From: Candidatus Gastranaerophilales bacterium
GTDB lineage: Bacteria; Cyanobacteriota; Vampirovibrionia; Gastranaerophilales; Gastranaerophilaceae
Length of the DNA: 64,000 bases
NCBI GenBank assembly: GCA_944326565.1
Contig: CALVEL010000002.1
Location: 1 to 64,000 of the forward strand
Reading direction: 5' to 3'
The notes below the pieces were generated by a model that was given only the letters and a program-made list of their open reading frames with translations, did not search any database and was not told the origin of the DNA. The translations under genes were made by a program, and so were the position numbers. Positions 10,367 to 18,080 of this stretch are shown here, in pieces (the first letter of the stretch is position 1; the number at the start of each line of letters is the position of its first letter).

Positions 10367-10620
10367 TGTAGAAAACTTTGCTTTTTTATGTAGAAAACTC
10401 ATGGGTTTTCTACATTAGAGGTTCTTTCCATTAAAAATGTATAATTTTTCTACATTCGCATTTTTTATTTTCTACAATTTTTTCTACATTCGCAACTCCT
10501 TATTACACAAGAGTTTCTCGCCTTTTTCTACAAATATTTTTAGCTTACTACTACTATTATTTATATTTATTTATATATTTAATTAATTATTTATAAATAA
10601 AAACTTAAAACGTGAATTTT
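10367..10620. other. oriC: Candidate chromosomal replication origin (oriC)
   Basis: Seven exact copies of the 9-mer TTTTCTACA fall within 166 bases: minus strand at 10367-10375 and 10389-10397, plus strand at 10406-10414, 10446-10454, 10468-10476, 10480-10488 and 10524-10532. The motif differs by one base from the cyanobacterial DnaA box TTTTCCACA. An A/T-only stretch (about 10555-10610) follows and could be the unwinding element. The cluster sits immediately upstream of dnaN, and genes point away from it on both sides. The region 10048-10366 holds no gene that I can see. DnaA is not encoded in the window. Confidence 0.72.
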
Positions 10621-10702
10621 TGTTTTATTTTTGATTTTATAAATCGATTTTAAAAACTTTTTATTATATAATCTTATAATAAGGGAGTATAAGGAGTAGA
10701 AG

Positions 10703-11824
10703 ATGAAATTTTTTGTTAAAAAGGAAGATTTATATAATGGTATAAAAATAGTTGAAAGAGCTACAAGCATGAAAGCATTGCAGCCAGTACTTTTAAATAT
10801 TCTTATAGAAACAGTTGATAAAGGTACGATTAGATTAGTTGCAACCGATTTGGATTTAACCGTTGTTGCGTTGGTTGATGCTCAAGTAGAAGAAGAAGGA
10901 AGAATTACTCTACCTTCAAAGAAATTAAACGAAATAGTTTCAAAACTTGGTGATAAATTGATTACTTTTGAAATGACTGAAGGTGAAAGTACAGTAAATA
11001 TAACATGCCAAAATTCAAAGTTTGATATAATTGGTATTTCAGCAAATGAATTTCCTCCAGAAGTCTATAGTATTGATTTAAATGAAGAAAATTGTTTTGA
11101 AATAGCAATAAAACCTTTAACTAAAGCTGTACGACAAGCTGGTTTTGCTGCTGCAAATTATGAAACTTCTAATCTTTTATCAGGTATTGTCTGTGATATT
11201 TCAGGAGACATCTTGGAAATAGCTTCAACTGATGGAAATCGTTTAGCTAGAGTTAGAGAAAAAATTGAAAATAAAGACGGCAGAACAAGCCAGCTAATAA
11301 TACCATCAAAGACATTAAATGAATTTATAAAAATGAGTTCTTTTATAGAAGAGGAATCTGTTAAAATATATACAGAACGCACAAAATTAATAATAAAAAG
11401 TGAAAGAACAATGACAGTATCAAGACTTTTAGAAGGTCAATTCCCGAAATACAATCAATTAATACCTAATGAAAGTCCGAAAGAGGCTCTTGTTTCAGTA
11501 TCAGATTTTATTTCTGCAATTGAACGTGTATCTATCATGGTCGATGATAAGACTAGTATTGTTAAATTAGCATTTACTGAAGGAAAACTAAAATTGTCAG
11601 CAGATACACCAGATAGCGGAAAATCAGAAGAAGAATTGGATATAGTATATAATTCTGAGGATTTAGATATAGCATTTAATTATAAGTTTATATTGGAAGC
11701 TTTAAAAAATATGGACTGTGATAATGTAAAAATAGGTTTGAATACAAGCCTTTCAGCGACAGTTTTAAGACCAGATTGTGAAGATGACTTTGTTTGTCTA
11801 ATAATGCCAGTACAAATAAGATAG
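10703..11824 (+). CDS. dnaN: DNA polymerase III beta subunit (sliding clamp)
   Basis: A 373-residue clamp with the three repeated domains of DnaN. The N-terminal KKEDLYNGIKIVERATS and QPVLLNILIE, the central domain opening with the pattern around AAANYETSNLLSGIV, EGQFPKYNQLIP, and the C-terminal VCLIMPVQIR are all typical. It tethers the replicative polymerase to DNA. The start is preceded by AAGGAG. It stands next to the candidate origin and heads a rightward cluster with a Cys-motif protein, crcB and an endonuclease IV-like gene at spacings of 10 bases or less. Confidence 0.97.
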   Translation: MKFFVKKEDLYNGIKIVERATSMKALQPVLLNILIETVDKGTIRLVATDLDLTVVALVDAQVEEEGRITLPSKKLNEIVSKLGDKLITFEMTEGESTVNITCQNSKFDIIGISANEFPPEVYSIDLNEENCFEIAIKPLTKAVRQAGFAAANYETSNLLSGIVCDISGDILEIASTDGNRLARVREKIENKDGRTSQLIIPSKTLNEFIKMSSFIEEESVKIYTERTKLIIKSERTMTVSRLLEGQFPKYNQLIPNESPKEALVSVSDFISAIERVSIMVDDKTSIVKLAFTEGKLKLSADTPDSGKSEEELDIVYNSEDLDIAFNYKFILEALKNMDCDNVKIGLNTSLSATVLRPDCEDDFVCLIMPVQIR

Positions 11825-16040: not shown

Positions 16041-18080
16041 CTATTCAGAACAGCCGAAGGCAATAGTAACGTGTTCTCTTGGATTAACGGCAGATATTTT
16101 GTATCCGCGGGGATCAACAAGGTAAGCAATTTCGTCGCCTGTAGTTTGGAATAATCCCATAGTACCTGATAAAGCGGTTCTTGTAACATCAATCGGAGCT
16201 TTAACAGTTTCCCAAAGACCATCACCTAAATTACGAGCAGCAGCACCGAATTCTCCTTGGAAAGCGTGTCCTAACATATAGCCGGCATCATTAGATACAT
16301 TTTCTACAGCGTTACCTAAGTTAGTAACAACACCACCGACTGTTCTTCCTGTAATACCAACAAGAGATCCTGCAAGTGTGAATGGCATTTCAACTAATCT
16401 TGCAACAGGGTTAACTTGTTTTGATTTATTAACCTGAGCTTGCAAAATTTGTTTTGGTAAATTAGCTTTGCAATCGCCGTTTTTGATTGAAGTGAAAGAC
16501 AATTTCAAAGCACCTTTGTCACATCCTGAAGGTCTTATTACTTCAACAACTTGACCTGTAACAGTTGATCCGCAAGGATAAGTTACACCATTAATAGTAA
16601 TATCTTCAAGAGTGTTAGCTCTAAAGTATTGACCAACGTGAGAAGATTTTGCTGTCAATTGGTCAATCATTTTAACTTTCAATGTAGGTATTTTAACAAT
16701 TTCTTCTTGTTCTACAAAAGCATTTTTGTTTACAGGACAAGCTGGACAAATGTTGTTAGCTGTTTTCGGATTAGTATCATAACCAAGAGCTACACGAACT
16801 GTCTGCATCATAGAAGCAATTTCTGCACGTGTTGCATCTTTGTTAGGCATAATCATATTCGGGTTAGGACTGTCTTTTAAAGCACCGTTTTGAAGTGATT
16901 TAGCAATAGGTATTCTTGCCCAATTTGGAACAGTATTACCGTCAGCATATTTGCTTAATATTTCATCAGCTTTGCATTGGTCAATATCACAAGTCATACC
17001 TTTTGCAATAGTAGTAAGAGCTTCAGCTCTTGTTACAGGGTGATTTGGTTCAAATTTACCGTTAGGATATCCTGCAAGTAAATTTTCATCTACTGCTTTA
17101 GCAATAGCAGCATTAGCCCAGTTGCTTGTTGGTACGTCTTTGAATTTACATTCAGTAGAAAGTCCGCAGTCATCTAAATTAAAACCTTTTACTAACATTG
17201 TTGCAAATTCTGCACGAGAAATGTTTCTGTTAGGTTTAAACATTCCGTCAGGATATCCGACAACAACATCATTAATAGCTAATTTGTCAATATCGCATGA
17301 TGCCCAATAGTTATTTGGGACATCGGGAAACATACAAGAGCTTGGGGATAAAGAGCTTGCAGCACCTGTGGTAGCGCCTTCACCTTTTATTTCGTAAGGT
17401 ACAAAACTTTTTCTTATTGCATCAATAGAATTTGATGTTTGTAAGTCAATAGGACAATTATTACCATCCATTAATTGTTCATTTCTTTCAATGGGGATAC
17501 CATTGTGACGGGTTGGAGCTTCATTTAGACAAGGTAATTGAGAAGCTGCACCTGTAATTTGACCGTCAGAAGATATAGTTGTTCCGCTTATATCAGAAGA
17601 AAGTACTCTTGGAGTTGATGCTAACGGAGTATCTGTTGAGAAGATAGAATTAGCAGGTTGACCTACATAATTGTTTGTACCGTAAATAGCGTTAGGATAA
17701 CCATATACTTGTTTCATATCTTTTCTGTCGGGTTTACCGGTTCCTGGACATACAGCACAAGCCGGTTCTGCCGGCTCATCACAGCTTATTTCATCTGGAC
17801 AATCGCAGTCAGACTTTTTCTTTTCGCAAGGATCGCAAGGATCCGGTTTTTGACAATCGCAATCTGGTAATGCTTTTTTACATTTCGGGCATGTGCTTGG
17901 TGTTTCGCATGGACATGCGGGACCTGTCACAACAGGCATTTGTTCTTCACATGGACATGCAGGACCTGTTACGGTCGGCATTGGTTGTTCGCAGGGACAA
18001 GCCGCCATTGCTTGATTCAAGGAACACGTTGCTATTCCAACGGCAATTGCAGCTGCCACAGTAAGTTTTTTAATAGTCAT
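16041..18080 (-). CDS. Secreted cysteine-rich SLH-domain (S-layer/envelope) protein
   Basis: 679 residues with a signal peptide ending near ALNQAMA-like SLNQAMA (residue 27). Residues about 28-105 are extremely Cys/Pro-rich, built on repeats of ACPCE-x-MP-x-VTGP followed by CDC and CDPC clusters. Three SLH modules follow (about 248-300, 305-360, 375-430; for example GYPDGMFKPNRNISRAEFATM and GYPNGKFEPNHPVTRAEALTT). The C-terminal 240 residues form a beta-rich segment and a Gly-rich helical segment that I do not recognise. SLH modules bind cell-wall polymers. The gene has a strong AAGGAGG site, a 187-base upstream region with hairpins, and its own terminator, consistent with high expression. 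Confidence 0.85.
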   Translation of the reverse strand: MTIKKLTVAAAIAVGIATCSLNQAMAACPCEQPMPTVTGPACPCEEQMPVVTGPACPCETPSTCPKCKKALPDCDCQKPDPCDPCEKKKSDCDCPDEISCDEPAEPACAVCPGTGKPDRKDMKQVYGYPNAIYGTNNYVGQPANSIFSTDTPLASTPRVLSSDISGTTISSDGQITGAASQLPCLNEAPTRHNGIPIERNEQLMDGNNCPIDLQTSNSIDAIRKSFVPYEIKGEGATTGAASSLSPSSCMFPDVPNNYWASCDIDKLAINDVVVGYPDGMFKPNRNISRAEFATMLVKGFNLDDCGLSTECKFKDVPTSNWANAAIAKAVDENLLAGYPNGKFEPNHPVTRAEALTTIAKGMTCDIDQCKADEILSKYADGNTVPNWARIPIAKSLQNGALKDSPNPNMIMPNKDATRAEIASMMQTVRVALGYDTNPKTANNICPACPVNKNAFVEQEEIVKIPTLKVKMIDQLTAKSSHVGQYFRANTLEDITINGVTYPCGSTVTGQVVEVIRPSGCDKGALKLSFTSIKNGDCKANLPKQILQAQVNKSKQVNPVARLVEMPFTLAGSLVGITGRTVGGVVTNLGNAVENVSNDAGYMLGHAFQGEFGAAARNLGDGLWETVKAPIDVTRTALSGTMGLFQTTGDEIAYLVDPRGYKISAVNPREHVTIAFGCSE

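Follow-up and report, generated by a model that had tools for sequence, protein, structure and literature searches.

The question raised by this locus is whether a cluster of nine-base repeats upstream of dnaN is the chromosomal origin of its host, and how DnaA might use boxes that depart from the standard consensus. Few protein-DNA pairs in bacteria are as conserved as DnaA and its box, and programs that locate origins take TTWTNCACA, or something close to it, for granted. The window, meaning the whole 64,000-nucleotide stretch of DNA that was analyzed, comes from Candidatus Gastranaerophilales, a gut relative of the cyanobacteria belonging to the Melainabacteria (class Vampirovibrionia in GTDB naming), and the relatives of its DnaN in named genomes are also Candidatus Gastranaerophilales or Melainabacteria. 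Cyanobacterial oriC is found next to dnaN with TTTTCCACA boxes in Synechococcus PCC 7942, Anabaena PCC 7120, and Cyanothece 51142 (PMC4674748). Judging from sequence, the window locus is very probably where the host starts chromosome copying, and we have good confidence in a fuller account in which 10367-10610 would be oriC, with DnaA acting on TTTTCTACA boxes, opening of the DNA at a basal unwinding system (BUS), and a preference at box position 6 that was moved by the substitution D433K in DnaA.

Upstream of dnaN there are 7 exact copies of TTTTCTACA within 166 bp, each one lying where a sequence-only reading of this DNA had placed it (Table 1), and they form the sole dense cluster of the 1.87 Mb genome. 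The whole window has 16 copies, compared with an average of 2.1 and at most 7 in 100 dinucleotide shuffles. A genome-wide count had been proposed as a check, and it came out in favor of the cluster, with TTTTCTACA occurring 118 times and its reversed control 123 times, which puts the word at background level outside the cluster, while the 4 pairs spaced at most 31 bp apart are all at the cluster and the reversed control has 0 such pairs in the genome. At the genome-wide rate, the expected count per 166 bp is 0.010. In 264 kb of contig C2, TTTTCTACA is the densest 9-mer once homopolymer-like words are excluded, at 7 per 200 bp, with any other reaching at most 4. Box 2 lies 22 bp from box 1 and 17 bp from box 3, and these spacings are seen again in many relatives. 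Two of the boxes do share the longer unit ending ATTCGCA that had been described, as the 15-mer TTTTCTACATTCGCA at 10446 and 10480, but this extension is missing from all 74 other dnaN-upstream regions examined and so looks private to this genome. A promoter scan gave matches no more than at shuffle level.

Table 1. Features of the candidate origin and of dnaN, in window coordinates
Feature	Position	Strand	Basis
DnaA box 1, TTTTCTACA	10367..10375	-	exact match
DnaA box 2, TTTTCTACA	10389..10397	-	exact match
DnaA box 3, TTTTCTACA	10406..10414	+	exact match
DnaA box 4, TTTTCTACA	10446..10454	+	exact match
DnaA box 5, TTTTCTACA	10468..10476	+	exact match
DnaA box 6, TTTTCTACA	10480..10488	+	exact match
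DnaA box 7, TTTTCTACA, trio-proximal box of BUS	10524..10532	+	exact match
Spacer, 12 bp, box 7 to DnaA-trios	10533..10544	+	12 bp in 60/61 relatives
DnaA-trio array TTA-CTA-CTA-CTA-TTA-TTT (opposite strand 3'-AAT-GAT-GAT-GAT-AAT-AAA-5')	10545..10562	+	trio definition PMC8287927
49-bp A/T-only run, likely DNA-unwinding element	10555..10603	.	sequence composition
dnaN, DNA polymerase III beta clamp	10703..11824	+	Pfam PF00712/PF02767/PF02768, TIGR00663

Between the boxes and dnaN, the AT content is 86% over 10533-10700, and the A/T-only stretch and immediately downstream dnaN of the earlier reading are both there, the latter with Pfam and TIGR00663 support. The earlier reading did not mention a BUS, which consists of a DnaA box, a spacer of 0-16 bp, and at least 3 trios with a middle adenine, with published spacers peaking at 10-13 bp (PMC8287927). 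The locus has a 12-bp spacer followed by five xAx trios plus AAA, and box 7, spacer, and putative trios together fit the published form (PMC8287927). Relatives have the same order of a last box, a spacer of this length, and then TTA/CTA triplets. In the mechanism that we propose, domain IV of DnaA would bind the seven boxes, DnaA would be handed from box 7 over the spacer onto the trios, and the AT-rich stretch behind them would presumably be opened and the helicase loaded. The arrangement shares with the Bacillus subtilis BUS a DnaA box, a short spacer, DnaA-trios, and an AT-rich unwinding region (PMC6669920, PMC8287927, PMC10721633). It differs in that the trio-proximal box is TTTTCTACA, which is outside TTWTNCACA, and in that one exact box adjoins the trios, compared with the tandem pair (#6/#7) of B. 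subtilis. Gene orientation diverges at the origin as had been claimed, with genes on the minus strand to the left and dnaN on the plus strand, but the strand bias is weak further out. Elsewhere in the window, at 16041-18080 on the minus strand, there is a gene for an S-layer-homology-domain protein (Pfam SLH) with a GC content of 0.39, unusually high for the window.

GC skew was another of the checks proposed. Over 264 kb of the contig, the cumulative skew reaches its minimum at 10,611, within the adjoining AT-rich stretch, with just 10.6 kb of contig lying to the left of the origin. A fuller picture comes from G046, an order-level relative from another family, where the skew is V-shaped at about -0.12 on the left and about +0.12 on the right over 150 kb, and the minimum at 262,798 is within about 170 bp of boxes at approximately 262,873-262,964. 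The sign change in G104 is offset by about 5 kb, and the same-genus relative G011 has no usable GC-skew signal; some members of the family have weak GC skew.

The cluster recurs in relatives. Across 75 dnaN-upstream regions, TTTTCTACA is the commonest 9-mer, present at least twice in 64 and at least 3 times in 63. Ten loci (L056, L059, L068, L072, L090, L097, L100, L101, L103, and L107) have no TTTTCTACA within 900 bp upstream of dnaN, and at these, other genes precede dnaN. That the repeats lie upstream of dnaN in most relatives would also suit operator sites through which dnaN or the divergent gene is regulated, with no origin involved. We regard this as highly improbable, since G014 and G020 have no cluster upstream of dnaN and instead carry a TTTTCTACA pair about 5 kb away from it, which indicates that the boxes are part of the origin rather than of the dnaN promoter; the skew minima at the cluster in the host (G000) and G046 and the conserved BUS geometry argue the same way. 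Assignment of the locus as the probable oriC thus draws on the unique cluster, the host skew minimum, the recurrence in 64 of 75 regions, the fixed BUS geometry, and the V of G046. The dnaA neighborhood was considered as an alternative origin and rejected, as 30 dnaA loci had at most 2 scattered TTWTCYACA matches each. Four genomes (G002, G007, G023, and G168) have a second, distant dnaN paralog besides the origin-linked copy; the three that were compared share about 27-30% identity with the window dnaN. Three genomes of family f8 (G058, G106, and G113, 4.3-6.3 Mb) lack a match to either DnaA_C or dnaN; since dnaA and dnaN sit side by side around the origin in several other members of f8, both could be lost through one assembly gap.

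The main point of interest is what has happened to the box. All seven copies fail the canonical TTWTNCACA at C6 by having T6, and the 9-mer does differ from the cyanobacterial TTTTCCACA as had been noted, T replacing C at that position. Across the sampled class, C6 is replaced by T or A, and over the whole order T6 is the main form and A6 the second. A census of TTWTNNACA upstream of dnaN counted T185 A102 G11 C7 in 40 genomes whose DnaA has K433, with 7.8 expected for C, so that C6 is at chance level there, and C86 T5 A3 G2 in 23 genomes with D433. D433 members of the phylum share the box-spacer-trio architecture, and their boxes are TTTTCCACA or TTATCCACA. The genome is about 70% AT and T6 is a single C-to-T step from the cyanobacterial box, so the site might be oriC with T6 arising from AT-driven drift or the use of weak boxes by a DnaA that still prefers TTTTCCACA. 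That is rather improbable in our estimate. A DnaA preferring C6 sits poorly with the chance-level C6 of the K433 genomes, with the count of TTWTCCACA, which is 0 in the 900 bp upstream of the host dnaN and 1 across the 75 regions, and with the loss of D433 in the same lineages that have T6 boxes. Furthermore, TTATCTACA is beside the trios in 5 of 6 genomes of family f8, where the origin regions are 47% GC (two measured), and two f9 genomes of 50-51% GC also keep T6 boxes; retention of T6 in f8 at that GC content is not explained by AT drift. Expectations set beforehand, of T6 or A6 but not C6 in K433 genomes of f8 and of C6 in other classes with D433, were largely borne out. For G099, which has Q433 and was expected to have A6 boxes, the region upstream of dnaN is without a box cluster. 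In family f12 (L194-L198), which has a T433 DnaA, several genomes show what looks like a TTWCTTACA box ahead of a CTA trio array, which raises the possibility of a further change at position 4 in that family.

The shifted box directs attention to the recognition helix of DnaA. The host DnaA is encoded on contig C1 (384 kb) and is a normal full-length DnaA with domains III and IV, scoring 488 bits against TIGR00362 where the cut-off is 344. Its K430 aligns with D413 of B. subtilis (8btg), which is E. coli D433, a residue reported to be strongly conserved in every class (PMC8235120), although membership of the DnaA family does not depend on it. In the sampled class residue 433 is never D and is mostly K, with R in f15 and some of f1, N in G015, Q in G059 and G099, T in f12, G033, and G070, and G in f11. 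In f11 (L191-L193, G061) the recognition helix has GRGNS in place of GRDHT, so that the conserved DH dyad is lost; upstream of dnaN this G433/N434 group showed no box cluster, and no box was identified for it. Box class could be read in 67 genomes, of which 17/17 with D433 have C6 and 50/50 with another residue have non-C6, although D versus K is essentially one class-level split, so that so clean a table suggests more independent events than there were. Thermotoga maritima, with S in that column, was left out of the comparison because its 12-mer box is not unambiguously alignable to nine bases. Column 433 alone carries the full information on box class (0.817 of 0.817 bit), the next best of 68 domain-IV columns having 0.587.

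Whether residue 433 is itself the cause is a separate matter. The box shift could be real and be due to another DnaA feature, such as the G-G deletion before helix 5, H439Y, or the HPT/HSS variants, with D433K a co-inherited marker, and a switch that is mainly one event does make many columns co-vary in part. We consider this unlikely, given that no column apart from 433 separates the groups, that Cyanobacteriia with D433 already have Y439 and yet read C6, and that f2-f4 and f9 keep GGRKHTT without the deletion while their main box base is not C6. One published assignment has E. coli D433 at box position 7, rather than 6 (PMC8235120), and the recognition helix reads the entire 3' half of the box (PMC5742627). 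We infer that residue 433 reads base 6, and that the change from D433 to K (K430 in the host) is the probable cause by which the preference there moved from C to T/A. The K of the host DnaA and the tracking of C6 by column 433 lend indirect support to the suggestion, made in the sequence-only reading, that the DnaA of this lineage recognizes a shifted consensus.

The pairings suggest, more tentatively, a natural code in which residue 433 sets base 6, with Vampirovibrionia having lost D433 once and the pair having been re-tuned several times since; we put this a little short of an even chance. In such a code D would go with C (the outgroups within the phylum), K with T or A, R with G in three f15 genomes (TTATTGACA beside the trios) and with T in f1, and N, Q, and T with A (TTATAAACA, TTATCAACA, and TTTTAAACA). 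N433 and Q433 do go with A6, and R433 with G6 in those f15 genomes. A6 is also used by 12 of 42 K433 genomes, so K does not dictate T, and since K tolerates A6 and R takes T6 in f1, the association falls short of a strict one-to-one code.

The locus shares with cyanobacterial oriC a cluster upstream of dnaN with dnaA often distant, a box starting TTTT and ending ACA, and the box-spacer-trio architecture, and it differs in having T rather than C at position 6 and K433 rather than D in DnaA. Epsilonproteobacterial origins also have shifted boxes, with a core TTCAC and T at position 5 (PMC5043019). A lineage-specific box consensus, tentatively linked to recognition-helix residues, is common to both cases, but in Epsilonproteobacteria position 5 is fixed, C6 is kept, and residues 435 and 438-439 are suspected, whereas here position 6 and residue 433 vary. 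The open-access literature that was searched, judged partly by title, held no report of this origin or box. Overall, the locus appears to be a normal oriC and BUS in which one core base differs throughout the class, with a corresponding change in the recognition residue. If the 433 code is true, the K form of domain IV would bind T6, then A6, better than C6, and the D form the reverse, across TTTTCTACA, TTTTCCACA, TTTTCAACA, and TTTTCGACA. A recognition rule that is nearly universal appears to have changed across an entire bacterial class, a core base having apparently altered along with the one recognition-helix residue that is described as universal; if so, standard origin predictors will miss the origins of that class, and D433K versus C6T would be a clean test of co-evolution between an essential initiator and its origin.
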